DNA from: Aestuariirhabdus sp.
Lineage (GTDB): Bacteria; Pseudomonadota; Gammaproteobacteria; Pseudomonadales; Aestuariirhabdaceae
NCBI GenBank assembly: GCA_030622755.1
Contig: JAUXFT010000004.1
Location: 1 to 64,000 of the forward strand
Length of the DNA: 64,000 nucleotides
Direction: 5' to 3'
Positions within the stretch are counted from its first letter, which is position 1. Each line of letters begins with the position of its first letter. The notes under the pieces were generated by a model. That model worked only from the letters and a program-made list of their open reading frames with translations, searched no databases and was not told the origin of the DNA. Shown here piece after piece: positions 5,056 to 35,972 of this stretch. The position numbers and the translations under genes are program-made.

Positions 5056-5877
5056 TTAAACCCTTCTAAAATAAAACCCCAAGTAACCTAAAATCTTGAA
5101 TTCTCGGTTGAAAGGTATTTCAATTCCTCTTGGACTTGTCCAGGTCGCTACTTGCTCATACCCCATTCCCAGCATCCTTGATTTCAAATCTTCACTAGAA
5201 TAAATTCGATAGGGCAACTCGCAGACCCCAAGGTTTTGTAATGTCCAAATGGAGGTGTCATCATGAACAGGTAAATTGTGTATTAGCACATGTTTTGGCG
5301 CTTTGGCTAAAGATCCAATGATATCCACCACATGCATTTTCATATACTGTAAGGTTCCAGCAGTCATAAATATATCCGCCGGCTCAGAGTCACAAAGATT
5401 AGCGCTATCTATAAACTTTAAACGGCTCTCTTCTCTTTCCTCCACAAGCTGCCTGCCTAACTCAACAGCTTGCGGCAACTCAGCTATTGTCCAGCGCAAA
5501 TCATCCGGGTAATTGATATAGGCATCGGATGTAAAGAAAAAGTGACCCACGCTCCCCCCCAACTCTAATACAACCCCCTCACCGCCAACAATACGACTCA
5601 ACCAGAAAAGCAAAGGGTAATCTATATCATGAAACCAATTATCAAGTGTTGTTTTTTCATGTTCTTTATTATCTAACTTATTTTCATTTATAACGTCATA
5701 TTCCATAACTGTTGAGCTCGGAATATCAAGTAAAGCCTCAGGGTAAGAACTGTAAACACCTCTGTAACTAATACCTAAACGGGCTGCAGATAAATGCAAA
5801 TAAATATCGCGACCAAACGGAAAAATCTCAATGAACTTAAGAAGTTTAAACTTTATTTTTTGTTTTATTGTATTCAT
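5056..5877 (-). CDS. Putative methyltransferase, TIGR04325-like
   Basis: VLELGGSVGHFFF SAM-binding-like motif, DLRWTIAELPQAVELG and AGTLQYM segments. Confidence 0.7.
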   Translation of the reverse strand: MNTIKQKIKFKLLKFIEIFPFGRDIYLHLSAARLGISYRGVYSSYPEALLDIPSSTVMEYDVINENKLDNKEHEKTTLDNWFHDIDYPLLFWLSRIVGGEGVVLELGGSVGHFFFTSDAYINYPDDLRWTIAELPQAVELGRQLVEEREESRLKFIDSANLCDSEPADIFMTAGTLQYMKMHVVDIIGSLAKAPKHVLIHNLPVHDDTSIWTLQNLGVCELPYRIYSSEDLKSRMLGMGYEQVATWTSPRGIEIPFNREFKILGYLGFYFRRV

Positions 5878-5898
5878 TGCTCAAAGAAAAAACCCTAA

Positions 5899-6843
5899 TT
5901 AATAAGAGCCCGGTGGGGGCTTATAACCACGATAACGCGACTTAATATCTGCCAGACAATGACCAAAGCCGCCTTTTATAATGTCAGTGTAATAGTTCGT
6001 TCCGGGGAATTTAGGTTTTAAACCCAGTCGGCGAAGAACAGTATTACACTGATGAATTTGTGCCTGCTGCCGAGTATAGTCCGTGTAGAACACAACCCCT
6101 ATAGACACCGACACCGCGTCGCCAGGAACGACCCATTCATTACTAGTTTCCGTCATATGCGGCGAAGTTGCAGGGAAATACACACCATCACCTGGCCCAA
6201 CATCAAAATCTCGACCTAACTGAGCGATTTCATCATTTAATCGAACATCGTCAAGACTTCTGTCTACAATAAACTGCTCTACAGCTGACCCAGAAACAAT
6301 ATTCCTGTCACTGTGATCAAATACCGTTATCCGTTTCCGGCCACGAACTTGCAACCAAAAGTTATTTTCTCTATCAATATGAAAAGGGGTGACCGATGGC
6401 GGAGCAGAAATAAAAATAAAACCGCCAACATTAAATATGTTTTTTTGTTCACGCTCTACGATTGGCCTTACTGAGGATATAACCTCATCTAGAAACATCT
6501 TGTATTCCGGATGAGCTTCGATATTGTAGAGCGCTATCCATGATTTCGGCTCATCAATTCTCTCAAATACCTCATCCAGGCTACGGCCATCGATTGTCTT
6601 TCCCTGATGGAAAAAATTTGAGTTTTTTTGAATATCTGGAGATACAAAACGACACTGCTTCTTCTCCATTAAGTAATTAGCCAAATCCTGCAACCGACTC
6701 ATTTCCATCAACGGATGCATGTCATAATTATGGTTAATCGGCGATCTCCTGTAAGAGCTAAAGTCCTCCCCCGGATCGATATGAAATTCTTCACACCCAG
6801 ATGAAACAGGCATAACTTTTCCCGTACGCTCTGGTTTGCTCAT
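5899..6843 (-). CDS. Cupin/JmjC-like putative Fe(II)/2-oxoglutarate hydroxylase
   Basis: FHIDRENNFWLQVRGRKRITVFD (HxD) and later YFPATSPHMTE (distal His). ORF extends to 6966, but ATG at 6843 (MSKPERTG) avoids most overlap with the upstream gene. Confidence 0.7.
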   Translation of the reverse strand: MSKPERTGKVMPVSSGCEEFHIDPGEDFSSYRRSPINHNYDMHPLMEMSRLQDLANYLMEKKQCRFVSPDIQKNSNFFHQGKTIDGRSLDEVFERIDEPKSWIALYNIEAHPEYKMFLDEVISSVRPIVEREQKNIFNVGGFIFISAPPSVTPFHIDRENNFWLQVRGRKRITVFDHSDRNIVSGSAVEQFIVDRSLDDVRLNDEIAQLGRDFDVGPGDGVYFPATSPHMTETSNEWVVPGDAVSVSIGVVFYTDYTRQQAQIHQCNTVLRRLGLKPKFPGTNYYTDIIKGGFGHCLADIKSRYRGYKPPPGSY

Positions 6844-6901
6844 GAAAACACCCACGCATGAGATATTAGTACAGACCTGGCGATACTTATAAAAACAGCC
6901 A

Positions 6902-7753
6902 TTAGTTTTCAGCCACCCTATCTGTACAAAAGTGCTCCAGATTGTCTCTCGCCCAAGCCTCGACACATTGAACTAGACGATCACGATGACTTTGTAACTG
7001 ATACAAATGATCAGCTAAAGGCCAAAATACCTCTTGGCAGCACTCATCAAAACCAACAATATTCAGTGAGTGCACAAACTGACCCTGCTGATTATATTGA
7101 TTCATTGCCTGACTGGTAAACACTGCAAGAACCCTCCCTGAGCAAGCACTGATTCGTCGAAAGCATTGATCCATATCAGAGTCATTCGGTTCATCCCTGA
7201 GAGCAGCCATCTCCGCGTGTACATTTGATTCCAGACCAAGGGCCCAGCGAAACCGCCGAAGAGTCGTTTTGGGGAGATTAAGCCACTTATAAATATTGCT
7301 TAGCTTCCCCATTAATTCTCGAATAGCAAAACCTTCATCATACGGAGGCATTGCATCCAACAACACTAAACCTTTCACAGCTGTATCTTTGGCAGCAATT
7401 TTTATTGCATTATCTGCACCCGAACACAAACCCATGAGTATAATTTTTCTATCTCCGAACCGCGCAGATAAAGACTGTTTAATATGCTGCCAATCCAAAG
7501 CTACAGATTGGCGATTACTTAAGCCCTCACGGGCAGGAGTGTCACCCTTACCAGACAAGTCTACTCGTACCGATATATAGCCCACTTCTGCCAATACTCT
7601 GCAGATTAATACATTTAAACGGTAAGGCCCCTCTCGATGAACCAGGCCTGCATTGAAGCAAACAACAATCGGCGCATGGTCAATATTATCTGGCAGAGAA
7701 ACCATACCAAAACCAAGATTTTTATCACCGAAACGTAAAACTTCTTCTGTCAT
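6902..7753 (-). CDS. Alpha/beta hydrolase (possible XrtA-associated hydrolase 1/2 or in-trans thioesterase)
   Basis: MGLCSGADNA nucleophile-elbow-like motif, RVDLSGKGDT; 4-nt overlap with upstream gene. Confidence 0.65.
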   Translation of the reverse strand: MTEEVLRFGDKNLGFGMVSLPDNIDHAPIVVCFNAGLVHREGPYRLNVLICRVLAEVGYISVRVDLSGKGDTPAREGLSNRQSVALDWQHIKQSLSARFGDRKIILMGLCSGADNAIKIAAKDTAVKGLVLLDAMPPYDEGFAIRELMGKLSNIYKWLNLPKTTLRRFRWALGLESNVHAEMAALRDEPNDSDMDQCFRRISACSGRVLAVFTSQAMNQYNQQGQFVHSLNIVGFDECCQEVFWPLADHLYQLQSHRDRLVQCVEAWARDNLEHFCTDRVAEN

Positions 7754-8493
7754 TTTTCTAAAACCATCAGGGCAATACTCGCAAGAATTGGCTTAGGATG
7801 AAAATTTCCTTCATGAAAACTCGGCCAACCGTATTCTAAGCCTGGAAACTTGCAGTTTTTATATAGATTTCCTTCGGCCACAGACTTATCAGTAGTGACC
7901 ACATAAGTACGATCACTCATATCACCTGCATCTCTCAATGTCAGAGCAGAAATACTTCGTTGTAATTCCTCCCCAAGCTTGAAATTTTCAAAACTTATCA
8001 TCTCTGGCTTCTGCCTTACTTGTCTAGCCAACCATCGATGCCTATCCTCAAGCTCTTTATTCACACTCGATAACCACCTCAGGTATACTTTTCCACTAGC
8101 TATTGGATCCCACAATACAAAACGAGTAATCGCAGGATGCTTACATTGAACAGCCAACGTAGCACCAAACCTCACCCCAACAAGCACAACCGACTGCGCA
8201 CCGGTTAAAGCAACCCCCTCTTCTATAGCACTGTAAATATCGTCAATCCAATCAGTGGCAGTGTACTCTGACAACTCGCCCTGTGATTCACCTGTACCAC
8301 TATAATCGAGACGAATAACATGCATACCTTTATCTGAACAAGCATTGGCAAGATCGGCGATAGCTCTATAACAACGTCGGTATTCATCAAAAAAAGGCGG
8401 ACAGACAACCAGCAACTCTGTCGATGATAAATCACTTGCTGCCTGGTAGCATGCAAATGCTTTTCTGGGGCCAAAAAAGAAAGGCTCTATCAT
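7750..8493 (-). CDS. Alpha/beta hydrolase-like protein
   Basis: VVCPPFFDEYRRCYRAIADLANACSDKGMHVIRLDYSGTGESQG typical of XrtA-associated/serine-aminopeptidase-type hydrolases; VLVGVRFGATLA at elbow position. Confidence 0.65.
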   Translation of the reverse strand: MIEPFFFGPRKAFACYQAASDLSSTELLVVCPPFFDEYRRCYRAIADLANACSDKGMHVIRLDYSGTGESQGELSEYTATDWIDDIYSAIEEGVALTGAQSVVLVGVRFGATLAVQCKHPAITRFVLWDPIASGKVYLRWLSSVNKELEDRHRWLARQVRQKPEMISFENFKLGEELQRSISALTLRDAGDMSDRTYVVTTDKSVAEGNLYKNCKFPGLEYGWPSFHEGNFHPKPILASIALMVLEK

Positions 8494-8575
8494 TATTATT
8501 TCCAGGACTTCATGTGGTTAAGGAATAGCTTTTACACCCGCTGCTAGCCATTAGAGGGCACCAACAAAATCTATA

Positions 8576-11500
8576 TCACTGAAAAAGTCGTCGCCAAAAA
8601 GGTCTTTTGGGTAAATCGCTAACGACCCCATCAATGTCCTCCGGCACTTCACCTCCTGGCTTATCAAGGTTCGCCACCAACCCCGATATTTTCGCTGAAA
8701 GACTATCAATAGTCACTGATTCTACCTGACCTGAGTCATAATCAAAAACCATAACAAATCCATCGGATTGAATCCTTGCCCAAAACTCCAGGGGCACTTC
8801 AGTTTGCTGCCGATCCATATCTATTTGCGAGAGCTTGAGGCCAGCTAAAGATTGAGGCCTATTGCGTATATCCTGAAATGCAAAACTAATAGGTAAACAT
8901 GCGGGAAACAACTGTTTTTCCAGTGGAGTATCTGCCACTAGCTGAGCATAGCTTAGATCCTGATGATCATAAAAGATCCTCAATTGCGCCGCTATGTCCT
9001 TCACCATAGTGCCGACGTTTCCAGCTCGAAAATTCAACTCCATGGGCAGAGTCGATACAAAACCGCCCATCAAGCCGATAACCTCGGGCATGTAACGACC
9101 GCTAACTGGTAGACCAATGACCAAGTTATTTCGCTTCTCGCTGTCACTGCAAGCTTTACCGAATAATGCCAAAAGCACCTCATGGAGACGCACCTGATAC
9201 AACTCACAAAAGGCTTCCAGCTTATCCAGAACATCACCACCAAAGTATAATTCACGGCGTGTGTATTCAGCTTTACTGGCCTCACTATTCACCAAACTAG
9301 AAACTTGATTTTCTAAATCGATAGCCTTTCGATGATAGGAAACATCTTCGCTATCAGGAGATTGGCCAGCCATCCATTCAGTATAGTCGCGAAACTGGAA
9401 GGACAAAGGGTCCAAAACAGCAGCCCGACTCTCCAATGCGGACCGGTAGTACGCCTCCAGCTCACTAAGAAAAATGTCGAAGGACCAACCATCAAATACT
9501 AATTGGTGAGCGTTAATCACTAAAAGATGTTTTTCAGCGCTAATCTTATACACGAAAATATTGCACAGTGATTCGTTAATAACCGAAAAGGGTAGCAAGG
9601 CCCTTTGTCGCGCATCTGATAGTGCAGCAGACATAGAATCCGTTTCATTGGAAAAATCTTTATACTCTGGCATTTCTAGCTCAGACATATGACGCAATAC
9701 CAGTTGGTACCCATCTTCATAGGGGGTAACCACTGTTCTCAGTGCTGTTTGCCTCTCCACAACCCTCTCAACGCTCTTACTAAACGCTGCCAGATTCATC
9801 TCTCCCTCCAGCAACCAGGCTGCAGGTAAGTTATTACAGGTGCTATTGGGTAGTTTAAGCTGACGCTCTAGTAAACGTGATTGCTCCTGGCTAAGTTGTC
9901 TTGCTGCAGATTGCGGCAATGCCACAGGCGCCACCACAGACTCTTGCTTACTATAGCCCGTAGAAATAATCTTTTCGGCAAGTGTTGAAAGGCGATCAGC
10001 AACAATATCCGCAGGCTTTAAGCGGGATCCAGAAACTGTTTCTATTTGACGTATTGCTTGCAGTGCCAACAGAGAATGACCACCAAGCTCAAAAAAATTA
10101 TCTTCACGCCCAATCGTACTACCGTTCTTCAACAGATCTGACCAAATATTAGCTATAAGCTTTTCTGAACCTGTTTGCAGTATCTTCTTGCTTAAAATTG
10201 ATGATTCATTCATCTCAGGGCGAGGCAATGAACGCCGATCCACTTTCCCATTCGGAGTGAGAGGGATCTTAATAATACTCAGGAAGTACTGAGGCACCAT
10301 ATAGCTCGGCAGACTTTCACGTAATTGTTTTCGAATGCTAATCGTTTCCAACGCTTTATCGGCCACAGGCACACAACATGCCACGACACGCACATCTTGT
10401 TCGCCAAGATACCAAAGGTAGACAGCCGCCTCTTCAATTTCAGCACAGCTTTTTAATGCCGCCTCTATCTCACCTAACTCAATCCTGTATCCTCGCAGTT
10501 TGACCTGGTCGTCAAGTCGACCCAAATGCTGTACCTCTCCATTGGGAAGCGCTTTAGCCAGGTCACCCGTCCGATAAATCCGGCCTAACTCAGCATGCAT
10601 GACAAAGCGATCATCAGTAAGATCTGGTCGTTGATGATATCCCAAGGTGACCCCATCTCCACCAATACAGAGCTCGCCTGGTACAGAGATGGGCAAAGGA
10701 TTTAAGTTGTCGTCGAGAATATAAACCTGTGTGTTGGCAATAGGTTTACCAATAGTAATTAATGTATCGCTTTGCCGAATTCGTTTACAAGTGGACCAGA
10801 CCGTCGTCTCGGTAGGGCCAAACATATTCCAGAGCTCACTGACATGAGGGATAAGATCAGATGCCAAATCCTGGGGTAATGGCTCACCGCCACACAAGGC
10901 TTTAAGCCGTCCCCGCTTGGACTTATCCTTGCCCCATTCACTGGCTAATAGCATTCGCCAGGTACTTGGCGTGGCCTGCATGATGGTAACCTGGCTTTGA
11001 TCTAATAACACAGCAAGCCGCTCGCCATCCTTCACATCATCACGGCTGGCAATCAATGTGGTCGCGCCGGTAACTAGAGGTAAAAACAACTCCAACACTG
11101 AAATATCGAATGACAGTGTTGTCACTGCCAGCAATATATCACCCCCTGTGCAACCCGGATTTTCTGCCATGCTTTCCAGAAAGTTGATCATTGCACCATT
11201 TTGAACCCTGACGCCTTTTGGCTTTCCTGTAGAGCCTGAAGTGTAGATAGTGTAAGCAACTCGCTCGAGAGAGGGCTCTGGCGACTCAACACTGACGCCA
11301 CTTTCTACTGATGATAAAAGGTCATCCATATTCAAATGGGTAAGCTCAGTATCATGTACGGCTTGTGGCGTACTGATATCCTCCAACACGGCAACCGCAC
11401 CACTGTCATCAATCATGTAAAGCAAGCGCTCTGATGGAAAATCAGGGTCCAGCGGGAGATAGATAGCTCCCAACTTCAGTACTGCCAATGTACCAATTAA

Positions 11501-13078
11501 CAAAAATTCAGATCGTTCACAACAGATTCCAACCACTGAATCCGATCGGACTCCTGCAGCTGAGAGGGCAGCAGAAAAATGGGAGGACAGCAAATCAAGG
11601 TCCTGATAACTAAGGCGTTTATCTCCAGAAATAACAGCAATAGCATCTGGATGATACTGGGCATGAAATTTGAATGCTGAAACAAGATCCGAAAACTTAC
11701 CCGATTTGACCGTCTGATTACTGATTTGAAGCACTTGCGGAATACTATCTGACAACGGCTGGTTTCCGATCGAAAGATTCGGATTTGTTATTGCTGACAA
11801 CAAGATGGCTTCCAGTGATCTCATCCAGGAAATTATTGTATCTTCAGAAAACAGAGCGGTTGAGTACGTTGTCTCCACAACTAAACCTTCCGTTGACGGC
11901 ATGATATTAAGAAAAATTTCAAAATTTTCTGCAGCACGAGGAACCGAACTCACCGAGGCAGAAGCACTACCAAAATCCAATAAAGGCATAGGCTGGTCGA
12001 TATTAAAAATTGTACTAATCAGTGGAACGCGAGACCTTTCCATCGATATTTTTTCGAGTAATTGCCCAAAAGTAAAATCAGGGTGCTCACTCGCATTGAG
12101 GACTTCTCTTTTAACTGCTGCCACCAAACTCGAAAAAGTAGTATCTCGATCAAGCTGAATTCGTATCGGCAACAGCTGAACCATATGACCAACCATCTTG
12201 GGCTGATTCAGTGCAGCCTGACCAGCAACTGGAAGGCCAACAACAATGTCCTCATTTCCCGTTAGGCGATACAATAATGCAAAATAAGCAGCGAGCACAT
12301 AATTAACCAAGCTGCATTTTTGTGCCGAAGCTGCTTTGGGCAGTTTAGAAACCAATGAATTATCAAAGTTATAGTCGTATCGAGCTGCACGGAAACTTCG
12401 TACTGCTGGACGAGACATATCCAGAGGAAAGTCCAGCACTGGTGGTAACTCTTGAAATCGCTCCAACCAATAATCTACGTCCGCATTAGAAACCTGGGAG
12501 GCCGAGCTCTGATCCGCAAAATCAAAAAAAGAAGGTGCTCCAGTAATAGTTTTGGCCTTACCACCACTACGATATAGCTCCGCCAACTCTGTCAGCAACA
12601 AACCAATTGACCATCCATCACAGATCACATGGTGTACTACTATAATTAGCTCGAAACATTCATCTTCGAACTGTTTCACCCAAACGAAAAATAGCGGCCC
12701 CTCTTCCAGGTTCATTGGAGAGATAGCGATATTGCGTAATAACTCATCGACTAAATATCGTTTTTCACCGGGCTCATAACTTCGCAGATCTTCAAACGAA
12801 ACTAATACTGGCCGAGCTTCTTGCAAACAAATCTCATCACCGAGAGGTGAAAAAGTTGCTCGCAATATATCATGACGCTCAACCAAAGTATTACAACATT
12901 TCTTAAGCAACTCCAAATCGAGCGAGCCAGTTATCGTTAACGACACCCCCTCATTGAAAGCTGTATTAGCCTCATCACTCATTTTTGATGAAGTAATGAT
13001 TTCTTGCTGAGGAGCTGTAGTTGGACTTACTCGCAATACTTCGCCACCGGCGAATGGATCAAAGCCTACTTCACTCAT
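8576..13078 (-). CDS. Non-ribosomal peptide synthetase, C-A-PCP-C
   Basis: 1500 aa; first C domain HHVICDG, A domain YTSGSTGKPKG and YRTGD, PCP FFELGGHSLLAL, second C domain HQLVFDG. Manual A-domain code DILQLGMVWK (Gly-like). Confidence 0.92.
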   Translation of the reverse strand: MSEVGFDPFAGGEVLRVSPTTAPQQEIITSSKMSDEANTAFNEGVSLTITGSLDLELLKKCCNTLVERHDILRATFSPLGDEICLQEARPVLVSFEDLRSYEPGEKRYLVDELLRNIAISPMNLEEGPLFFVWVKQFEDECFELIIVVHHVICDGWSIGLLLTELAELYRSGGKAKTITGAPSFFDFADQSSASQVSNADVDYWLERFQELPPVLDFPLDMSRPAVRSFRAARYDYNFDNSLVSKLPKAASAQKCSLVNYVLAAYFALLYRLTGNEDIVVGLPVAGQAALNQPKMVGHMVQLLPIRIQLDRDTTFSSLVAAVKREVLNASEHPDFTFGQLLEKISMERSRVPLISTIFNIDQPMPLLDFGSASASVSSVPRAAENFEIFLNIMPSTEGLVVETTYSTALFSEDTIISWMRSLEAILLSAITNPNLSIGNQPLSDSIPQVLQISNQTVKSGKFSDLVSAFKFHAQYHPDAIAVISGDKRLSYQDLDLLSSHFSAALSAAGVRSDSVVGICCERSEFLLIGTLAVLKLGAIYLPLDPDFPSERLLYMIDDSGAVAVLEDISTPQAVHDTELTHLNMDDLLSSVESGVSVESPEPSLERVAYTIYTSGSTGKPKGVRVQNGAMINFLESMAENPGCTGGDILLAVTTLSFDISVLELFLPLVTGATTLIASRDDVKDGERLAVLLDQSQVTIMQATPSTWRMLLASEWGKDKSKRGRLKALCGGEPLPQDLASDLIPHVSELWNMFGPTETTVWSTCKRIRQSDTLITIGKPIANTQVYILDDNLNPLPISVPGELCIGGDGVTLGYHQRPDLTDDRFVMHAELGRIYRTGDLAKALPNGEVQHLGRLDDQVKLRGYRIELGEIEAALKSCAEIEEAAVYLWYLGEQDVRVVACCVPVADKALETISIRKQLRESLPSYMVPQYFLSIIKIPLTPNGKVDRRSLPRPEMNESSILSKKILQTGSEKLIANIWSDLLKNGSTIGREDNFFELGGHSLLALQAIRQIETVSGSRLKPADIVADRLSTLAEKIISTGYSKQESVVAPVALPQSAARQLSQEQSRLLERQLKLPNSTCNNLPAAWLLEGEMNLAAFSKSVERVVERQTALRTVVTPYEDGYQLVLRHMSELEMPEYKDFSNETDSMSAALSDARQRALLPFSVINESLCNIFVYKISAEKHLLVINAHQLVFDGWSFDIFLSELEAYYRSALESRAAVLDPLSFQFRDYTEWMAGQSPDSEDVSYHRKAIDLENQVSSLVNSEASKAEYTRRELYFGGDVLDKLEAFCELYQVRLHEVLLALFGKACSDSEKRNNLVIGLPVSGRYMPEVIGLMGGFVSTLPMELNFRAGNVGTMVKDIAAQLRIFYDHQDLSYAQLVADTPLEKQLFPACLPISFAFQDIRNRPQSLAGLKLSQIDMDRQQTEVPLEFWARIQSDGFVMVFDYDSGQVESVTIDSLSAKISGLVANLDKPGGEVPEDIDGVVSDLPKRPFWRRLFQ

Positions 13079-19716: not shown

Positions 19717-19906
19717 GGTATCCAGTTACTCCTGCTCCATAAATTCTTATCTACAATTATATTTTGACAGATGCCCTGATGCTTAAATTGTCGCGGATTT
19801 CAGTCATGGACTAATCATTCAAACCAACGATTCAAAGGAAAGACCATATATACAACTATGTTTCTCAGTCTAGCAAGTTTATGAGGAAAACGCCTGATCT
19901 AAGCCA

Positions 19907-21206: not shown

Positions 21207-21459
21207 ATATTCCTCCGGCGCAAGATCTCAATAAGTAATATTCACTATCCCATTTCAACGGAAACCATCTTACCATTCAACGCCTTTAGACAGTGTCTCA
21301 GAAATTGAATCACAAACTTTTTATGCATGGGATTCACAAGTATATGATTCGTCTCAACCACATACTTTAGTTCTAATTAAGTCGCGAAAAGCAATACCTT
21401 TAAAAACAGCCGTGTATTGCACGAATAATAGTCAGGCTCGCTGACTGAAAAAAGAGGCC

Positions 21460-25335: not shown

Positions 25336-25376
25336 TCATTTATATCCAGCAGCAAAAAACAGTTAAAAAATTAATA

Positions 25377-26381: not shown

Positions 26382-27871
26382 TGACTCGATTTATCCCACT
26401 TGATTTCAGCCAGAACATTTATTACTTCCCGTATATAAACCCTATCAATATCTTGCGAACAATCATCGGCGCATGCAATAGAAAAAGTAATCAATGCAGC
26501 CTGTGGCTCATTGGTCAACTCAGCGGATAGTTGTAACAATTTTGCCATAAACCCAGATGTTGTATAATTGTCACCAATTCGATAAACCCAAAATATTTTT
26601 CTCGCCTGACCTGCCACTTCAGCAATCGTAACTGCCAATCTATTATTATCTACTTTCTCAGTAATACTCTGCCCGAGTACTATCTCAGGAGGGACTATTT
26701 GATTAGCCCCATAAATCAACTCCTTCCCTTGAGTTTGTTGATTGTAAATTAAAGCAGTAATCACTGTAGCTTTACCACCAATCCTGGAAATCCATTGTTG
26801 CGCAATATCGTAACCTTGATAATCTGGCAACCAATACGGCCGGGCCTCTTTATTAACTATGATATCTTCCGGCAATATCATTCCACGGACTGCGTTTTCA
26901 ATCTTATCAACTGACTTATAAGCATATACTGGCAATATTGCGGATATAAACAACGTTAATGCTGTCACCACAATAATATTTCTATACGTTTTACCGGTTA
27001 CACCTATATCGGAATTTTCACCCTCAAGCTTTCCTGTATCTTTTACATGTGAAAGATATGGATCAAGCCAACGCATTAGCATGAAAAAAGCAAGCAATAC
27101 AAGTGCAAAAATAAACCAACCAAAATTGCTATGGTCGTTAACCAAAGGATGTTGCAAATTCGTATAATGGCCGACTAAAACCAATAAGAATATTCGAATC
27201 CAGTTTGCTATTATCGAAAAGGATGCAATAAGAACAATACAAAACAGTCGAGAATATCCCCTCAAATAATTAGCGGCATAAAACAAACCAATTACCAGGC
27301 CCGATATCAAATAGTTTTGTCCCGAGCAGCCCCCGGCAATCTCCACAACACCTGCAGTTAAGTGGATCTGGAACCCACTAATAAATGCCGGAATCTCTAA
27401 CAAGGCTAAACCTTTTTCAACGACTATTACGGCCATCGTTCGCAGGGGGATGCCCAACACCCCCCAAACAGGAATAGTGAAGTAACAAAGCAAAAAGGGA
27501 AATAGAAAGCCTCGAGCTATTGCCCAGCCCAACACCACAAAAAACCAGGAAAAGAGAATTACCGGAAGAAAAATTTGACTCAACAATTGAGCTTGGGTGA
27601 CATAACCGGCATACCAGGCAAGTATTGCGGGTATTATTATAAGGAGTGCAGGAAGGCAGGGAGACACGGCGCTTATTGAAATTGACCTTACCGTCTTCCA
27701 TATTAAGTAAGCCGCCATAACCAGGACAAGGTAACTTGAAGAGTATGGCTCATCAGGATTCATCCAACGTTGATGCAATGTTGCCAGTGTTGGCCAAAAA
27801 AGAGCCGTAAACACCACAGCGAGCCCTGACAGTAAAATCGCTATTGGCTCACGAGCTATCAAACTCTTCAC
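26378..27871 (-). CDS. xrtA: Exosortase A (XrtA) fused to EpsI-like domain
   Basis: GGCSGQNYLISGL (Cys), NWIRIFLLV (Arg), VNDHSNFGWFIF (His) catalytic elements in a polytopic N-terminus; soluble EpsI-like C-terminus. Confidence 0.88.
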   Translation of the reverse strand: MKSLIAREPIAILLSGLAVVFTALFWPTLATLHQRWMNPDEPYSSSYLVLVMAAYLIWKTVRSISISAVSPCLPALLIIIPAILAWYAGYVTQAQLLSQIFLPVILFSWFFVVLGWAIARGFLFPFLLCYFTIPVWGVLGIPLRTMAVIVVEKGLALLEIPAFISGFQIHLTAGVVEIAGGCSGQNYLISGLVIGLFYAANYLRGYSRLFCIVLIASFSIIANWIRIFLLVLVGHYTNLQHPLVNDHSNFGWFIFALVLLAFFMLMRWLDPYLSHVKDTGKLEGENSDIGVTGKTYRNIIVVTALTLFISAILPVYAYKSVDKIENAVRGMILPEDIIVNKEARPYWLPDYQGYDIAQQWISRIGGKATVITALIYNQQTQGKELIYGANQIVPPEIVLGQSITEKVDNNRLAVTIAEVAGQARKIFWVYRIGDNYTTSGFMAKLLQLSAELTNEPQAALITFSIACADDCSQDIDRVYIREVINVLAEIKWDKSSQ

Positions 27872-27956: not shown

Positions 27957-28880
27957 ATGCTTCCAAATCCTATAAGTCAGCCTGACAATAATAGCCCACA
28001 AAGCACAACTATTACACACGCAATCACTATCGATGTTGAGGATTATTACCATGTGGCCGCCTTTAACGATGTGATAAAGCCAGCGGACTGGGCCACTCTA
28101 CCCTCTCGGGTAGAACTTAATACAAACCGCATACTTGAACTCTTTGACGAAAAAAAAATCAAAGGAACTTTTTTTATTCTAGGATGGGTAGCCGACAGAT
28201 ACCCCAATATAGTTAAATTGATCAGCGATCAAGGACATGAAGTTGCATCCCATGGATACAGCCACCAATTGATCTACCGTCAATCACAGAATACCTTTCT
28301 GGAAGAAACCAGAAAATCCAAAGACATATTAGAAGACCTTATTCAAAAGCCCGTCACAGGTTATCGTGCTGCCAGTTATTCGATCACTCGAAAATCCTTG
28401 TGGGCTGTAGATGTGCTACTCGAACTGGGGTTCAAATGGGATTCAAGCATATTTCCTGTACATCACGATAATTATGGTATTCCCGGAACGCCCACATCAG
28501 CTTATTATCTGCGCAACTCATCCGGCGAGGCACTGTTGGAAATACCGCTTACTGTCGCTACTTTCGGCAATACCTCTGTGCCCGCCGCTGGTGGAGGCTA
28601 TTTCCGCCTCTACCCCTATTTTCTCTCCCGTTATTTATTTAACCGAGCGACTCAAAATAGAGCCGGCGTTTTCTATCTGCACCCATGGGAGATAGACCCA
28701 GAGCAACCAAGAATTCCCGGGGCAAGCTTATTTTCTAAATTTCGACATTACAATAATTTGGATGTTTGCCAACACCGACTAAATCGATTGCTGAACGACT
28801 TCAAATTTAGCACAATGTCTGCATTAATAGACCAGTTAAATATCGACTCCCTCCAAACCATCGAATTACAGAATTTATAA
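27957..28880 (+). CDS. XrtA-system polysaccharide deacetylase
   Basis: ITIDVEDYYHVAAF N-terminus, HEVASHGYSHQLIY, DUF3473-like C-terminus (FYLHPWEIDPEQPR). Confidence 0.88.
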   Translation: MLPNPISQPDNNSPQSTTITHAITIDVEDYYHVAAFNDVIKPADWATLPSRVELNTNRILELFDEKKIKGTFFILGWVADRYPNIVKLISDQGHEVASHGYSHQLIYRQSQNTFLEETRKSKDILEDLIQKPVTGYRAASYSITRKSLWAVDVLLELGFKWDSSIFPVHHDNYGIPGTPTSAYYLRNSSGEALLEIPLTVATFGNTSVPAAGGGYFRLYPYFLSRYLFNRATQNRAGVFYLHPWEIDPEQPRIPGASLFSKFRHYNNLDVCQHRLNRLLNDFKFSTMSALIDQLNIDSLQTIELQNL

Positions 28881-30281
28881 ATGGAACTTCGCAGCCTGCT
28901 TTCCGACATCGATTCGGCCATAATCAATAACTGGGGAACGCTGGACACCTGTCCATGCGCAGATGAAATTTATAACTTAGCCGAAGTAATCGACCACTTG
29001 AAACCAAAAATTAAATCCCTAAAAAAACAAAAACAAGGCTTATCCCGCGCCTTTCGTGATTCCAGCTTATCAGCAACAGAAATTCTTAAGCTAAAAGAGG
29101 ATATGCAGATTTTTAGCGTTGATTTAAAGCAACTCGAAAACAAGCGCAAGAATCATGAAAAAAAATTGCTTTCCCTTTTCAATAAGACATCACTGCAAGC
29201 CGATTTCCCAATCAGGTTTATGCATGAGACAACAGAGAGCATTGACAAAGTTATCCACGTAAAAATTGTCTCTGATGACTTTTCTGCAACTTGGGACGGC
29301 TATGTATCCAAACATCCCCAAGCATCAATTTACCACCTCTATAATTGGCGACATGTGATTAAAAACAGCTTTAATCATCACGGCATGTATCTTGCCGCAA
29401 TAGATGAGTCAGGCCACTGCCGCGGAGTACTCCCCCTAATAAAACTAAGCAGTCGTCTATTTGGCACATTCACTGTATCCATGCCCTACTTTAATTATGG
29501 CGGCCCCATCGCCGACTCTAATGAAATTGAAAAAACATTACTTGAATTTGCAGCCACTCAAAATCTCCAGCAACCCATACAATATCTGGAAATTCGCGCG
29601 ACAAAAAATTTAAATGACTGGCCCAAAAAAACTGATAAAGTCTCGATGATTCTCTCGCTGCCCGAGGAGCAATCACAACTGGATAAGCAACTTGGCACTA
29701 AATTAAGAGCACAAATTAACCAGGCAAAGAACCACGATCTACAAGTTAAGCTTGGGTCTATTGAGCTTTTGAACGACTTCTACACGGTCTTTGCGGAAAA
29801 CATGCGCGATCTGGGCACACCAGTCTATTCAAAAAAGTTCTTTAGCAATATTTTTACTGCATTCGCCAGCCAGGCAAGTCTGGCAATAATATACAGCAAT
29901 AAAAAACCGATCTCTGCTGCCTTTTTAATCGGCTATCGGGATATGCTGGAAATTCCCTGGGCATCTACACTTAAAAGTCATAATAAAATGAATGCGAATA
30001 TGCTGCTATATCGAACGGTTCTCGGTTATGCAATTGACTCTGGGTACCAGTATTTCGACTTTGGCCGCTCCAGCATGAATGCCAACACCTATCGATTTAA
30101 AAAACAATGGGGCGCAAAAGCCCAACAACATCAATGGCATTATTGCTTAGCGGAAGGAAAACCCCTCCCCGGGCTCAATCCTGACAATCCGAAATTTAAT
30201 TTATTAATAAGGGTATGGAAAAAAATCCCTGTAGTTATCACGCGTCTGATCGGCCCATCAATCGTAAAAAACCTTCCTTAA
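28881..30281 (+). CDS. FemAB-like XrtA/PEP-CTERM-associated protein with N-terminal coiled coil
   Basis: N-terminal KSLKKQKQGLSRAFRDS...LKQLENKRKNHEKK coiled coil; C-terminal SIYHLYNWRHVI, YFDFGRSSMNANTYRFKKQWGA. Confidence 0.85.
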   Translation: MELRSLLSDIDSAIINNWGTLDTCPCADEIYNLAEVIDHLKPKIKSLKKQKQGLSRAFRDSSLSATEILKLKEDMQIFSVDLKQLENKRKNHEKKLLSLFNKTSLQADFPIRFMHETTESIDKVIHVKIVSDDFSATWDGYVSKHPQASIYHLYNWRHVIKNSFNHHGMYLAAIDESGHCRGVLPLIKLSSRLFGTFTVSMPYFNYGGPIADSNEIEKTLLEFAATQNLQQPIQYLEIRATKNLNDWPKKTDKVSMILSLPEEQSQLDKQLGTKLRAQINQAKNHDLQVKLGSIELLNDFYTVFAENMRDLGTPVYSKKFFSNIFTAFASQASLAIIYSNKKPISAAFLIGYRDMLEIPWASTLKSHNKMNANMLLYRTVLGYAIDSGYQYFDFGRSSMNANTYRFKKQWGAKAQQHQWHYCLAEGKPLPGLNPDNPKFNLLIRVWKKIPVVITRLIGPSIVKNLP

Positions 30282-30313
30282 AAAATTTATTCCTGAAGAA
30301 AATAGCATGCAGG

Positions 30314-31591
30314 CTATAAAAACTGATAATTAATACTGATACCAGCACGCGTTTCATCATACTCGAGCACGTCCGTATGCGAGTTTCGCGTCTCATGAGA
30401 AACAGATGCGTCCACAGTGAACTTTCTAGTGAGATCATGACTAAAGATCAAACCGTAACGCTGAACGTAATAATCCTGCCTTGGGTTACCATTTCTAAAG
30501 GTATAATCTTGATAAGAAACATCAAAATCAATTGTTGACTGACGGGAAAGCCGGTAACTTAAATTTATACGACCACCTAACTCCAGGTTATCATCAGGTA
30601 GAATTTTATAACTCTCATCGACCATCAATACAGCCACGCTAAAAGTGCATAACTCACACACTACCTCTGTAGTATAAATCAACTCAGCGCTGGTAACTTC
30701 ATAAATATCGACGCCACGACCTGCGGTAGTCGCATCGCCTAAATCAGTAAGGCCATCATTATTATTGCCTCTGGATGTATCCGTTAACTCCTGCAAGAGA
30801 TCTAATTCCCATTGAGAACTGCCACTTACATAAATAAAATTCGCATTGACATAAGTGCCATCGGTATCTTCAAATCGATCTCGTTGTGATTCATTATACC
30901 CTAGCACAAAGCGATAACTTAAACGTGAAAGTTCGGCATTAAAACCAAGCCTCCCCGAATAATATTCATAATCATTAATACCATTATCAAAATTCACATC
31001 TTGATAGATGGCAGTAACATCAAAAGAATATATCGATGACAGGTCATGTCCCCAAACAATATCTCCACCCAAGCGGTCGGAATCCTGTTGACCGCTATCC
31101 TCGTAAGACACTCTTACATAGGACAAACTGGTATTTAAGGTGTCGACCGAGCCAATTCTTAGCCTCCACTCAGGTGACAATGTTGTAATTGAACGATTCT
31201 CTCTATTATCAGCATTGTCAGCAAATTGCTTGTCCCGAATGATATTTCTAACGCTATTGGTTAATGTCCAAAATAAAGAATTTTGTATTTGCTCATAAAA
31301 TAATCTCGCATCACCGACAACTTCTGTCGAGTCTTGCTGGGTATCATCTTTATATTCAGTATAAAGCGCCCTGTAATCCACTTCGATTTGAATAGATTCA
31401 CTTTCATGAGTCACTACAATCCCGCCACTTATGCCTGTGATGTAATCTGAATCACCATTATCTGCCCTCTTTTGCGCATTATCTGTATGCTCAACACCAA
31501 CGCCAGCGTCAAACTCCAATTCAAAAGCAGCTAGTGGATCCATAATAAAAACAAGCGGGACCACAAAGTATAATTTTTTTCCGAACTTCAA
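30314..31591 (-). CDS. XrtA/PEP-CTERM-associated outer-membrane beta-barrel-like protein (TIGR03016-like)
   Basis: Signal-like N-terminus, alternating aromatic beta-strand pattern (TIDFDVSYQDYTFRNGNPRQDYYVQRYGL), C-terminal INYQFL. Confidence 0.75.
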   Translation of the reverse strand: MKFGKKLYFVVPLVFIMDPLAAFELEFDAGVGVEHTDNAQKRADNGDSDYITGISGGIVVTHESESIQIEVDYRALYTEYKDDTQQDSTEVVGDARLFYEQIQNSLFWTLTNSVRNIIRDKQFADNADNRENRSITTLSPEWRLRIGSVDTLNTSLSYVRVSYEDSGQQDSDRLGGDIVWGHDLSSIYSFDVTAIYQDVNFDNGINDYEYYSGRLGFNAELSRLSYRFVLGYNESQRDRFEDTDGTYVNANFIYVSGSSQWELDLLQELTDTSRGNNNDGLTDLGDATTAGRGVDIYEVTSAELIYTTEVVCELCTFSVAVLMVDESYKILPDDNLELGGRINLSYRLSRQSTIDFDVSYQDYTFRNGNPRQDYYVQRYGLIFSHDLTRKFTVDASVSHETRNSHTDVLEYDETRAGISINYQFL

Positions 31592-31612
31592 AATCCTCTC
31601 CCGGTAAAATTA

Positions 31613-32362
31613 TTATTCGTTATTAAATATCAAGCCCGCGAACTTATCTTCGCCTACCGCATCAACACCGGACATAACCTGCTCAGCTGTTACCTTGCCA
31701 AAAGGGACAACTAAAATAGCCATATCAACATTTTGAGATATAATTCGAGGAACAGAAGAATCACTTACTGGCGGAACATCAATAACAATGAATCTATCGT
31801 CATAACGAGATTTCAATGTGGAAAGTAGGTTTCGCATTCTTGAAGAAGCCAATCTTTCTACCGCCGTGTCGCCTAAAGAACCCGGTGGAATAACTCTAAC
31901 TCTGGAAATTCCAGAAGAATAAATAATATCCTGCAAGTCCAGACTGTCATTATCAAGATAATCCATAAGGCCATAATCGCTAGTCGACTTAAGAATTTTA
32001 TCAGAAAAGGAATCTTCTGAATTTGCATCTATATATATCGCAGTTTTCTTTTCATCCAGAGCGAAAGATGCCGCCATATTCATGGCAACAAAACTTGCAC
32101 CCCCGCCTAAGCCCAAAGAACTTACCATTAGAACGAAATTTTTGCCGTCACTTTTTTGTAATAGCTTTGTTCTCAAATCGCGAAATATTTTCAAAACATT
32201 CCGCTGTTTCATCCCCGGGTAGATGATTTTAAGTGCTGACAACTCATCCTGAGTTTTTAAGACAACATCTTCCATGCTGGAAATTGTCTCCGAACTACTT
32301 AACGCAACACCGTGTGTTAACTCTATTACAGAACTCTTTTTGTTTTCGTCCATATCATTCAC
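31613..32362 (-). CDS. BY-kinase-like/ParA-like ATPase of XrtA locus, degenerate Walker A
   Basis: LVMVSSLGLGGGASFVAMNMA, TAIYIDANSED, FIVIDVPPVSDS. Confidence 0.75.
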   Translation of the reverse strand: MNDMDENKKSSVIELTHGVALSSSETISSMEDVVLKTQDELSALKIIYPGMKQRNVLKIFRDLRTKLLQKSDGKNFVLMVSSLGLGGGASFVAMNMAASFALDEKKTAIYIDANSEDSFSDKILKSTSDYGLMDYLDNDSLDLQDIIYSSGISRVRVIPPGSLGDTAVERLASSRMRNLLSTLKSRYDDRFIVIDVPPVSDSSVPRIISQNVDMAILVVPFGKVTAEQVMSGVDAVGEDKFAGLIFNNE

Positions 32363-33883
32363 TTATAGCGCCCCACTTATATTCCAGAACACCAGCGCAG
32401 CATAGGTTGCCAAAAATACGATTGATCCAAGAATAATTATTAACATATCCGCCTTCTGCAAACGGCTGATGACGGGTGAATTTATATGAGGAATCACACC
32501 TAACAACTGTATATTCTCTGGTAAACTTTGAACAAGCTGCATAGGAGAACGCAAACGAGGATCCACCAGAACATACAAAATCATTAGACCAATTACTGAA
32601 AACAGGGCAATGAATGGGCCAAGCACTGCAAAATGAATAAAATGCAAGCCGGATGGATTTAACGGGTAAACTGCAGGCTCCTGAATCTTAAAACTTACTC
32701 CCTGCCCTTCTACATCCAGGGTCATTGAAAGCCTAGCCTTCTCCTTCCTGCCGAGCATCTCTTCGTATATCTCCCTGGTAACATCATAATCCCTTACCAG
32801 TTCAGACAATTCAGCTTCATGTGAAGCAACACGCTGAGCGCGTAAATATTCATCCTCTAGCATTTTCTTCATTGAAGAGAGTCTGCGACGCTGACTTCTT
32901 AAATCCACCTCTATCTCTGCCTGTCGCCTTCTAAGCTCTTCGTACAATGGATTCTCAAGATTGTCAGAGGAAGAACTCGATGCGACATAACCCTCATCAC
33001 TCATCGCCTCAATAACCAGTTCAATCGCGGAAATTTGCTCTTTTATCGCCACGATATCAGGATAAGTTTCTTGATAGCTCAGCCGATAAATATCAAGCTG
33101 TGAGCGAAGACTTTCCAGCCTCTCCTCCTGATCTTCTATTTGGCTTCTATTCTTTTGTAGTTTCCCTTCATTCTTAAGTTGCCGCTTCAACGAGCTTTCT
33201 TTAGATTCGGTTTCATCAATGGTCAATTTAATTTCTTCTATTGCCAACCTTAATTGATTTATTCGTGCATTAACGGTATTTTCATTTCCATCCAGATTTT
33301 TTGACTTAAAGTCTTTTAAATTTCTTTCGGCAAGAATAAGCTGGTTTTTATACGAAATCACCTGCTGATCTATAAATTCATAGGCATTCCGGCTCTCTGT
33401 CCTTCTGCTATCAACCGAATTTCTTATAAATTCATCAACGACTATATTAAGAACTTTAAATGACAAGTCCTGATTTTCATTAAAATATGTAATTCGAAAA
33501 TAACTCTGACCTTCACTTTGAACAGAAATCGTTCTACGCAAATTCTTTATTACCTGCCTCTGCGTCGCCGGAGGATCCATGGATGACATCAATCCGGCGC
33601 TTTCTGCCACCTTGGTTAAAATTTTTCGCGTATAAATTATATCTGCCGCTTTCTTGGATAAATCCAAAGTAGTGACTTCCGCCGTCCCCTCAAGAAGTGG
33701 TTTAATAATGTTTGTAACATCGGCATACAAAGCTGTACTCGTTTCATATTTCTCAGGCCACAAGTACCCCACAGTAAGAATTGAAAATGTGAGAAAACCA
33801 CATAAGAAAAAAAGCTTTATTTTTAAGCCTAGTATTTCTCGCCACACTGCATGAAGCAGCTCTAGATATAACGTCGTTTCCAT
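32363..33883 (-). CDS. Polysaccharide chain-length determinant (Wzz/GumC-like, XrtA-type)
   Basis: Two terminal TM segments flanking long coiled coil; GYLWPEKYETSTALYAD; C-terminal PAVYPLNPSG. Confidence 0.87.
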   Translation of the reverse strand: METTLYLELLHAVWREILGLKIKLFFLCGFLTFSILTVGYLWPEKYETSTALYADVTNIIKPLLEGTAEVTTLDLSKKAADIIYTRKILTKVAESAGLMSSMDPPATQRQVIKNLRRTISVQSEGQSYFRITYFNENQDLSFKVLNIVVDEFIRNSVDSRRTESRNAYEFIDQQVISYKNQLILAERNLKDFKSKNLDGNENTVNARINQLRLAIEEIKLTIDETESKESSLKRQLKNEGKLQKNRSQIEDQEERLESLRSQLDIYRLSYQETYPDIVAIKEQISAIELVIEAMSDEGYVASSSSSDNLENPLYEELRRRQAEIEVDLRSQRRRLSSMKKMLEDEYLRAQRVASHEAELSELVRDYDVTREIYEEMLGRKEKARLSMTLDVEGQGVSFKIQEPAVYPLNPSGLHFIHFAVLGPFIALFSVIGLMILYVLVDPRLRSPMQLVQSLPENIQLLGVIPHINSPVISRLQKADMLIIILGSIVFLATYAALVFWNISGAL

Positions 33884-33897
33884 TAACTACAACAGCC

Positions 33898-34512
33898 TCA
33901 AAATGAACGTTCGGGTACGGTGACTATATCAGAGGGGAGTAACATATAATTTGTTTTAAGATCACCTTCTTGTAATATCTTTTCCAGGTACACAGGGTAT
34001 ATTTTTACATCTCCCGCAATTCTTCGATAAAGCTTTGCGCCGTTCTCTTTCGCGAATTCATTGGTTCCCCCTGCCAAAAGAACCAGATCGAGAACCGTCA
34101 TTCCCTTCCGATAAGGTACTGATTGAGGGTTCAAAACAGCACCAGTCACTCGAACTCTTTGTTGAAAATCTGAGCTACTGGGATTGGTAACAATGACTGT
34201 TACCTGAGGATTTTTAATAAAGACCTGTAATTGCTCGGTAATCTCTGCGGATAAATTCTCCGTCGTTTTATTGGCAACAAGTACATCACCAATCAACGGC
34301 ATTGAGATTTTTCCATCTGGTCGAACCGGCACATCCAAAGACAGCTGCTCGTTCCCCCAAACCTGAATCCTCAATTCATCACCCACCCCAATCCGATAAG
34401 GTTCCTGACTATAATCCAATATGTCATCTGGCATCATCATCGGCGCATCGGTGGATGAACACGCGGCCAATATCACCACAGCCAGTGACGTTAATATTTT
34501 TTTGATATTCAT
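33898..34512 (-). CDS. Polysaccharide export lipoprotein (Wza/EpsE-like, XrtA-type)
   Basis: Lipobox VILAACSS; YRIGVGDELRIQVWGNEQLS; ATG at 34512 (MNIKKIL) is the likely start inside the longer ORF. Confidence 0.88.
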   Translation of the reverse strand: MNIKKILTSLAVVILAACSSTDAPMMMPDDILDYSQEPYRIGVGDELRIQVWGNEQLSLDVPVRPDGKISMPLIGDVLVANKTTENLSAEITEQLQVFIKNPQVTVIVTNPSSSDFQQRVRVTGAVLNPQSVPYRKGMTVLDLVLLAGGTNEFAKENGAKLYRRIAGDVKIYPVYLEKILQEGDLKTNYMLLPSDIVTVPERSF

Positions 34513-34565
34513 AAGATTGACTCTCCGCATCTCTATAAATACTTGATTAGCTGGCATCGGGATAA

Positions 34566-35972
34566 CTATCTGACACCCTTTCCTAACAAGATCACCTCTA
34601 TACTCTGCACCACAATTAGCACATCGAGCATAAAACTATAATTTTTTACATAATAAAGGTCGTATTTTAGTTTATTCGCTGCATCTTCAACAGATGCGCC
34701 ATAGGAATAATTTAATTGTGCCCAGCCCATTAAGCCAGGTTTAACCCTATGGCGCTCATGATAAAAATTAATCTGCTCATTCAACTCGCCTACAAATTCA
34801 GGCCTCTCCGGTCTGGGACCAACAAAGCTCATATCCCCTTTGAGCACATTATAAATTTGTGGCAACTCATCAAGCCGGGTATTGCGAATAATCCCCCCGA
34901 CCCTGGTGATTCGAACGTCATTTTCACTGGCCCAGACCGCTTTGCCGGCCTTCTCGGCATCATGGCTCATACTTCTGAATTTATATATCCAGAATAACCC
35001 CCCATTCAAACCAACCCTTTGCTGCTTATAAATGACCGGAAATCCACTTTCCATAGCGATCGCCACCACAGTCAGGATCATAAAAGGCCACATCAATAAC
35101 AACAGAACTACGCTGACGGAAATATCAAAAATTCTTTTTGCGACGTCTCTTGCCTGACTATATTTAAAGCCGTTACCAAAAACCATCCAACCCTGGTAGA
35201 TTTCTGCCAGTTCAATACAGCCAAACTCTCTTTCATAAAAGGTTACCGCCTCGGTAACCTTTATTCCTTTCATCTTACACTCAAGCAATTCATCCAGGGG
35301 GAAATAATTACCCTTGCCCTTTCTTCTTTCATCAACAGCAACAACCACCTCATCGATTTTTCTGTCGCGCGCCAATTCATAAATACCAACAACCGGATTA
35401 ATAAGTAATTCACTGGAAAGACGGGTATTTTCATATTCTGTTGGAATATAACCAACCACATCAAAGCCAAGATGGTAATTGTTTTGTATTGCCTTATGAA
35501 TAAGCTGGGCTTTATCCCCCGCACCCAGCACAAATAATCGTCTCTTTAGTTTTGAATTATCCACCACAGAGTAAAATACCCGGCGAATAACTAATACCGC
35601 CAGCAGAGAAGCCATAACCACCTCAAATAACATGGCCGTTTGAAACCCTAACTCAGTGATTAAATTAAACAGCATTAAACATAACAGCCCTCCCAGCAAG
35701 CAGTAACTCACCACCGTTCTTACCGCCATACTAATAAAGCTTTCAACCAGACCGGATTCATACACTCCCATCGCCAATGTAGAGATCATCATAATAGACG
35801 CATAGCTCAGCGCCCCCCAGACCATGACCGACTCAGGCACCGCGGGATTGCCGAAAAAGAAATACCACGCAAGGAGATAGCTACAGGCATATAAGGTAAT
35901 GAACTCTACCAATGCCAGAACAATATAGGGGGAGCGTATGTAATGATTAAAAATTCTGATATGTGCCAACAT
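34566..35972 (-). CDS. Priming sugar transferase (TIGR03013-like, bacterial sugar transferase)
   Basis: KRIFDISVSVVLLLLMWP, YKFRSMSHDAEK, RNTRLDELPQIYNVLKGDMSFVGPRPERPEFV. Confidence 0.92.
   Translation of the reverse strand: MLAHIRIFNHYIRSPYIVLALVEFITLYACSYLLAWYFFFGNPAVPESVMVWGALSYASIMMISTLAMGVYESGLVESFISMAVRTVVSYCLLGGLLCLMLFNLITELGFQTAMLFEVVMASLLAVLVIRRVFYSVVDNSKLKRRLFVLGAGDKAQLIHKAIQNNYHLGFDVVGYIPTEYENTRLSSELLINPVVGIYELARDRKIDEVVVAVDERRKGKGNYFPLDELLECKMKGIKVTEAVTFYEREFGCIELAEIYQGWMVFGNGFKYSQARDVAKRIFDISVSVVLLLLMWPFMILTVVAIAMESGFPVIYKQQRVGLNGGLFWIYKFRSMSHDAEKAGKAVWASENDVRITRVGGIIRNTRLDELPQIYNVLKGDMSFVGPRPERPEFVGELNEQINFYHERHRVKPGLMGWAQLNYSYGASVEDAANKLKYDLYYVKNYSFMLDVLIVVQSIEVILLGKGVR

Follow-up and report, generated by a model that had tools for sequence, protein, structure and literature searches.

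A hybrid NRPS/PKS cassette in an XrtA-like exosortase exopolysaccharide locus, with a predicted role in decorating the polymer

Canonical exosortase A (XrtA) exopolysaccharide (EPS) loci carry a module of the families TIGR03098 to TIGR03101, in which a carrier-type front end is accompanied by a pair of hydrolases distinguished by an arginine in one and a cysteine in the other. The subject of this work is a stretch of 64,000 nucleotides from an Aestuariirhabdus sp. assembly (contig JAUXFT010000004.1, positions 1 to 64,000; hereafter the window), in which such an EPS locus adjoins a cassette encoding a hybrid nonribosomal peptide synthetase/polyketide synthase (NRPS/PKS) assembly line and a hydrolase pair, HYD2-HYD1. 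The window resembles the canonical loci in its front end of carrier type, its Arg/Cys hydrolase pair, and five core families scoring above their cut-offs, but its front end consists of a complete NRPS/PKS, its exosortase and hydrolases fall below the family cut-offs, and its HYD1 lies outside the canonical clade. The reading we favour, with a probability of about 0.52, is that this is an XrtA-like exosortase EPS locus with an exchangeable thiotemplate cassette, whose carrier-bound amino-acid/polyketide group would be passed via the hydrolase pair onto EPS sugars.

Several other described systems share parts of this arrangement. Mycosubtilin- and iturin-type hybrids are loaded with a fatty acid and contain an in-line class III aminotransferase (AMT), and the window cassette has their KS-AT-T-AMT order, which leads to a beta-amino acyl group; however, it loads by an adenylation domain, has no thioesterase, is paired with standalone hydrolases, and is embedded in an EPS locus. 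Clusters of aminoacyl-[acyl carrier protein] ligases and acyl carrier proteins (ACPs; PRK07080/PRK07081) perform a single aminoacyl-carrier step rather than employing a megasynthase, yet in Pleionea the hydrolase pair, there fused, lies beside the carrier protein and ligase. The Dlt system for D-alanylation of teichoic acids works in a similar manner, with adenylation and a carrier protein supplying a surface polymer with an ester that bears an amine, although the window donor would be far more complex, and homologues of the Dlt transfer proteins were not identified in the parts scanned. A system from 2011, represented here by its title as cited in PMC6602434, likewise combines an exosortase system with an encoded enzyme of small-molecule biosynthesis, but the enzyme is of another class and is not known to be accompanied by thiotemplate machinery. 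No report of NRPS/PKS genes recurring as a component of exosortase EPS loci was found in the open literature, with few subscription papers and preprints covered, and exosortases appear there with NRPSs, PKSs or AMP-ligases in passing co-mentions only; a study of expression in Marinobacter biofilms (PMC8233155) does not mention a megasynthase.

Recurrence of the cassette beside exosortases

A scan for the HYD1 motif across 84,980 species, each represented by one genome, identified 58 loci spread over Gamma- and Betaproteobacteria, Desulfobacterota, Gemmatimonadota, Acidobacteriota, Myxococcota and Bdellovibrionota, in most of which NRPS and/or PKS open reading frames (ORFs) stand beside the hydrolase pair. 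The architectures of these megasynthases differ, including KS-AT-KR-DH, C-A-T, A-A and KS-AT-T-AMT. An exosortase was present in 24 of 45 HYD1-bearing genomes and not detected in the other 21; in nine of the 24, belonging to Gammaproteobacteria, Desulfobacterota and Gemmatimonadota, it was at most 30 kb from HYD1, against 0.59 expected (P = 1.4e-9), in a sample picked via a hydrolase family with members known beforehand from XrtA loci; what is new is the megasynthase. Phylogeny was handled by genus collapse only: dropping one Marinobacter and one Gemmatimonas genome left seven linked genomes of 22 (P = 5e-7). Among 392 genomes of the window's order, treated with the same limitation, exosortases were found in 12 of the 16 with HYD1 and 109 of the 376 without it (Fisher P = 2.7e-4). 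Because linkage so far exceeds expectation, these comparisons support the proposal, made in a preliminary description of the window, that the megasynthase is part of the EPS locus and not a chance neighbour.

Full EPS loci with the cassette occur in HTCC2143, Marinobacter algicola, Marinobacter sediminum, Desulfobacula maris and G219, a genome of HTCC2143's genus, and full EPS loci with a non-orthologous megasynthase occur in G030, where it is directly upstream of the export genes, and G197, where a different PKS/NRPS is about 2 kb from the exosortase. In both Marinobacter species, genes for the initiating transferase, export, chain length, kinase, deacetylase, FemAB and glycosyltransferases are followed by those for the cupin, methyltransferase, an S15-type hydrolase, HYD1, HYD2, C-A-T-C', A-T-KS-AT-T-AMT and the exosortase. 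The D. maris cassette has glycosyltransferases on one side and the exosortase on the other; the gene order of G219 resembles that of the window, with two megasynthase modules adjacent (L148-L150, G219:C5:715001-775000); and two Gemmatimonas genomes encode, besides the NRPS/PKS module, a standalone A-domain protein accompanied by a separate HYD2-HYD1.

Some further features of these loci were observed. In Gemmatimonas Bin148 (L141-L142, C21:10001-48195), three thiotemplate modules surround one exosortase: an NRPS and PKS with a hydrolase pair, a standalone A-domain protein with a hydrolase pair, and an A-KS-AT / AMT-C megasynthase. In the G219 locus, an internal TAA is reported in one HYD1 copy, and the NRPS/PKS gene is split over two overlapping frames. 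A Golvesin-C-domain protein adjoins the Marinobacter cassette (L125:9959-11512). The labels Verrucomicrobiaceae and Klebsiella pneumoniae on two public records (L112, L113) look wrong, as the records match genomes of the window's order (G030, G034).

Hydrolases, megasynthases and exchange between loci

The hydrolase pair is the constant element of these systems. HYD1 has a nucleophile-elbow Cys110 (GLCSGA) and His249, both invariant across 32 homologues; in HYD2, an invariant Arg108 replaces the nucleophile, and no His is invariant across 33 homologues. The canonical XrtA-associated hydrolases, where the motif is readable, show the matching pattern (GLCDGA and GLRLG), and these shared positions are specific evidence, at the level of sequence, of kinship between the two sets. 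The preliminary description had considered the two hydrolases in relation to the XrtA-associated families, and TIGR03100 and TIGR03101 are their closest NCBIfam relatives, but both scores fall short of the cut-offs (Table 1), and in the HYD1 tree the canonical TIGR03100 proteins are set apart as a clade of their own by a branch of 2.0 changes per column, with support of 100/100. HYD1 and HYD2 are therefore best classed as sister types outside the formal families, though the nucleophile-elbow Arg is common to HYD2 and TIGR03101. In some genomes they are fused into one protein; models of one fused protein (pLDDT 83) and of HYD2 (pLDDT 90) have only generic lipases and feruloyl esterases as neighbours in the PDB, and plasmid-borne relatives of HYD2 are weak, partial matches. 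The front ends vary between NRPS/PKS, the aminoacyl-ACP ligase and ACP of Pleionea, and those of canonical XrtA genomes, and the pair is, by its conserved residues, a signature of thiotemplate cassettes of this type.

The Pleionea cluster (L116:3129-10915) encodes an ACP (PRK07081), an aminoacyl-ACP ligase (PRK07080), and acyl-CoA-dehydrogenase-like, DUF1839-like and beta-galactosidase-like proteins, with the fused HYD2-HYD1 adjoining glycosyltransferases; similar fused hydrolases are found in L114, L115, L118, L119 and L121.

The megasynthase pair contains A, T, C, KS and AT domains with their catalytic motifs. The KS Cys/His/His, the AT GHSxG and HAFH, three carrier Ser motifs, the aminotransferase Lys and the HHxxxDG of the first C domain are intact and conserved in six orthologues, and the A motifs are likewise intact and conserved in orthologues; we take HAFH to denote a malonyl-type AT. 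Substrate codes read by eye from alignment columns are D-A-F-W-L-G-G-T-F-K for A1 and D-I-L-Q-L-G-M-V-W-K for A2, presumably Val-like and Gly-like respectively, although this is a weak prediction. Domain searches found no match to a terminal release domain, whether thioesterase or reductase, in either protein. Instead the NRPS ends in a C' domain (residues ~1050-1480) with HQxxxDG for HHxxxDG in all six orthologues, placing Gln at the catalytic second His, and this domain appears to be altered at its catalytic site yet kept by selection.

Comparison with HTCC2143, in which the hybrid gene is 88% identical, provides a view of how the cassette spreads. Most genes of the window from 37.9 to 64 kb are collinear with this genome, with the nucleotide-sugar genes in the same order except PGI, and the right flank is partly collinear with G030 too; the collinear flank places the EPS loci of the window and HTCC2143 at the same site. 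A DNA block common to both (Table 1) has one end inside the cupin gene and the other 23 bp upstream of the acyltransferase. Within the cassette, four-fold sites in the NRPS/PKS gene are 66% identical (946 sites), those in the NRPS 62%, in HYD2 63%, in HYD1 52% and in the acyltransferase 59%. Flanking housekeeping genes mostly lie at 28-53% (uvrA 39% over 389 sites, rpoA 35%, secY 37%), with values of 50-59% in a few short ribosomal ones, and the EPS core lies at 17-33%. This pattern indicates that the window cassette moved laterally, between orthologous EPS loci.

The HTCC2143 cassette is flanked on one side by the C-terminal remnant of a HYD2b and a HYD1b without the invariant His, and on the other by an A-domain tail fused to a truncated cupin. 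As these traces resemble another NRPS/PKS type, it seems that the thiotemplate module of this EPS locus was exchanged, an earlier NRPS/PKS module giving way to the present cassette type. The candidate origin of the 23-residue tail on the broken cupin as the end of a canonical TIGR03098 ligase was rejected, its best match being an NRPS A domain of G030 (E 3e-4), and is also contradicted by the tree, in which the leftover HYD1 groups with NRPS/PKS-linked HYD1s; an interruption of HYD1b by TGA was similarly rejected, the ORF being of normal length with the invariant His missing. The earlier suggestion that a canonical module may have been replaced fits in part, in that the best match to a standalone TIGR03098 ligase in the window genome, an 87%-complete assembly of 238 contigs, was 202 bits, with none above 592, but the HTCC2143 trace is of an NRPS/PKS module and not a canonical ligase. 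The accompanying suggestion, that the canonical module may have been elaborated, fits the coexistence of a TIGR03098-type ligase with an NRPS in D. maris and Thioalkalivibrio.

The window locus and its setting

The genes and strands given in the preliminary description were all confirmed. The exosortase EPS locus occupies 21.4-36 kb of the window (contig G000:C117 in this analysis), with TIGR03006, TIGR03007, TIGR03013, TIGR03019 and TIGR03027 all above cut-off, as expected of the XrtA type (321 bits against 279 for TIGR03007, 518 against 393 for TIGR03013, and 202 against 180 for TIGR03027), and relatives of TIGR03016, TIGR03018 and TIGR03097 below theirs. The exosortase belongs to the superfamily (TIGR02602, 122.7 bits against 105.55), and its catalytic Cys, Arg and His are conserved across 11 aligned exosortases. 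However, it scores 183.5 bits against the curated XrtA cut-off of 208 (TIGR03109), and those of HTCC2143 and G030, at 186-189 bits, are likewise below it; hence its earlier designation as XrtA does not hold, and its sequence identifies it as an XrtA-like sister type. Elsewhere, near the start of a short contig, the window genome contains another exosortase gene, a partial one (G000:C84:375-1109, locus L063; 185 bits to XrtA and 230 to PF09721), and the number of PEP-CTERM matches exceeding the cut-off in this genome is four.

The cassette lies on the distal side of the locus, at 5056-21206 (~16 kb), and comprises seven minus-strand genes in the order acyltransferase-3, A-T-KS-AT-T-AMT, C-A-T-C', HYD2, HYD1, cupin oxygenase and TIGR04325 methyltransferase, several with overlapping start and stop codons. 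A terminator-like stem at 21474-21454 separates it from the GT4-Wzx-exosortase run, and GC content steps from ~0.38 to 0.44-0.49 at this boundary, so the cassette is probably transcribed apart from that run. The methyltransferase has homologues of 48%, 47% and 35% at the same place, and is present in the Marinobacter and Desulfobacula cassettes. The cupin's annotated start is probably 41 codons too long, judging by alignment with Marinobacter orthologues, and its HTCC2143 counterpart is a truncated, decayed copy. The membrane acyltransferase has relatives adjoining the same megasynthase in HTCC2143 (82%) and G219 (50%).

Beyond the nucleotide-sugar genes are fabA, fabB, a moeA-like gene, ssb, uvrA, rplQ, rpoA and secY, consistent with an ordinary chromosomal site. 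The same-genus genomes G001 and G002 have canonical XrtA loci without the cassette, and share no synteny with window positions 36209-64000. As their uvrA genes (72% DNA identity to the window) are no nearer than those of other families (HTCC2143 75%, G030 72%), and the right-flank synteny is missing, the contig may have been placed in the wrong genome bin, or the genus may be loosely labelled, which leaves the locus itself unaffected.

Table 1. Positions of the features discussed, in window coordinates.
Feature	Position	Strand	Profile or basis
TIGR04325-family methyltransferase, last cassette gene	5056..5877	-	NCBIfam TIGR04325, 177 bits (cut-off 80)
Cupin_8/JmjC-like 2OG-Fe oxygenase, HxD...H kept	5899..~6843	-	PF13621, PF08007
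DNA block common to window and HTCC2143	6379..21229	.	blastn, 80-84% identity over main pieces
HYD1, alpha/beta-hydrolase, TIGR03100-related	6902..7753	-	TIGR03100, 43.2 bits (cut-off 168)
HYD2, alpha/beta-hydrolase fold, pseudo-hydrolase, TIGR03101-related	7750..8493	-	TIGR03101, 88 bits (cut-off 203)
NRPS, C-A-T-C'	8576..13078	-	Pfam domains
Hybrid NRPS/PKS, A-T-KS-AT-T-class III aminotransferase, 2213 aa	13075..19716	-	Pfam/NCBIfam
Membrane acyltransferase (Acyl_transf_3), 5' cassette gene	20070..21206	-	PF01757
GT4 glycosyltransferase	21460..22596	-	PF00534
O-antigen ligase/polymerase-like, TIGR03097-related	22613..23878	-	TIGR03097, 125 bits (cut-off 188); PF04932
Wzx-type flippase	23875..25335	-	PF13440, PRK10459-like
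Polysaccharide deacetylase	25377..26381	-	PF01522
XrtA-like exosortase with C-terminal EpsI-like region	26378..27871	-	TIGR03109, TIGR02602, PF09721
XrtA-system polysaccharide deacetylase	27957..28880	+	TIGR03006, 391 bits (cut-off 276)
FemAB/GNAT-type XrtA-system protein, candidate amide-forming acyltransferase	28881..30281	+	TIGR03019, 346 bits (cut-off 260)
EPS core: outer-membrane protein, tyrosine kinase, chain-length, export, initiating sugar-phosphate transferase	30314..35972	-	TIGR03016-like, TIGR03018-like, TIGR03007, TIGR03027, TIGR03013
Nucleotide-sugar supply: PGI, TviB-like UDP-GlcNAc 6-dehydrogenase, epimerase, PMM, GalU, GMP/PMI	36209..43889		

The putative product and its destination

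The recurrence of such blocks in exosortase EPS loci of at least three phyla suggests that a small chemical group made by the assembly line is borne by the sugar polymer or by proteins anchored with it; the order of the chemistry, the offloading role, the acceptor and the attachment are what we infer within this explanation. A1 would load an amino acid, to which the KS and AT would add one malonyl unit, and the aminotransferase would replace the beta-keto group by an amine; the acyl thioester so formed would be of the beta-amino and probably the beta,gamma-diamino type. Another amino acid would then be added by the second megasynthase protein (C-A-T-C'). Since the hydrolase pair is constant behind varying front ends, offloading would proceed through HYD1 and HYD2, with the product handled by the C' domain and this pair instead of a thioesterase: HYD1, with its Cys and His, is the likely acyl-enzyme, and HYD2 its putative non-catalytic, Arg-bearing partner. 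The cupin and methyltransferase would tailor the product, and an acyltransferase of the locus (FemAB/GNAT or Acyl_transf_3) would move it to an EPS sugar, for instance to amines freed by the deacetylases, or alternatively to the carboxylates of uronic acids from the TviB-like pathway. The decorated polymer could then exit through Wzx and the export proteins.

Several points weigh against this predicted decoration of the EPS. Firstly, the FemAB protein and deacetylases are general to XrtA loci, rather than confined to those bearing the cassette. Secondly, the cassette is probably its own transcription unit, with its own base composition. Thirdly, the preliminary description had named occurrence of the block apart from exosortase loci as the finding that would count against the association, and alongside the excess of linkage there are copies unlinked to an exosortase in DC_out160, Thiocapsa imhoffii and two Desulfoluna genomes, while linkage cannot be judged in many metagenome-assembled genomes.

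The chief competing explanation, which we regard as unlikely but deserving of serious consideration, is that the product of the cassette is a peptide-polyketide metabolite secreted in free form, such as a signal, siderophore or antimicrobial, and that the cassette shares the neighbourhood through being co-selected with biofilm formation. The probable separate transcription, the distinct base composition, the unlinked copies, and the sporadic distribution of the cassette (16 of 392 genomes of the order) would all be natural for such a product. Less readily explained are the repeated siting of non-orthologous megasynthases inside exosortase EPS loci of several phyla, and the sharing of the hydrolase pair with the non-NRPS front ends of EPS loci; in addition, profile searches of the window cassette revealed neither a dedicated exporter nor a thioesterase.

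A more doubtful proposal is that an amine-bearing graft serves as the acceptor onto which the exosortase transfers PEP-CTERM proteins, in the manner of the FemABX-built branch for the Gram-positive sortase. The same locus encodes a FemAB homologue and an exosortase with intact Cys, Arg and His, the aminotransferase would install an amine, PEP-CTERM proteins are encoded in the genome, and cassette and exosortase are linked; yet many exosortase loci have no cassette, some cassette genomes have no detected exosortase, and we know of no exosortase for which an acceptor has so far been shown. The general form of this idea is just as speculative: interchangeable thiotemplate modules, whether a small ligase and ACP, an aminoacyl-ACP ligase or a full NRPS/PKS, would share one kind of transfer pair, HYD2(Arg)-HYD1(Cys), and graft onto the polysaccharide the amine-bearing group to which exosortases anchor proteins.

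It is a shade less probable again that the target of the cassette is a lipid or a lipid-linked intermediate, such as an undecaprenyl-linked repeat, which the flippase or polymerase would then recognize, rather than the final polymer. The adjoining Wzx and Wzy-like genes are compatible with this, as is the membrane acyltransferase that forms the 5' gene of the cassette in the window and likewise in HTCC2143 and G219, but Acyl_transf_3 proteins are usually O-acyltransferases of polymers or sugars, and the cassette contains no other lipid-specific genes. Chance insertion of an NRPS/PKS cluster is very improbable, for although the block is laterally mobile, its linkage to exosortases is ~15 times the expectation (P ~1e-9), and the same locus has been repeatedly occupied by such modules in HTCC2143 and G219.

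Returning to decoration of the EPS, a readable NRPS/PKS front end in the place of the ligase and ACP genes of XrtA loci makes the putative attached group predictable, such that it could be sought by mass spectrometry; cultured genera such as Marinobacter carry such loci. The HYD2-HYD1 pair offers a marker for finding NRPS/PKS clusters of this type. If this reading is true, some NRPS/PKS products would be parts of surface polymers, and not free metabolites, and genome-mining pipelines would misfile them.

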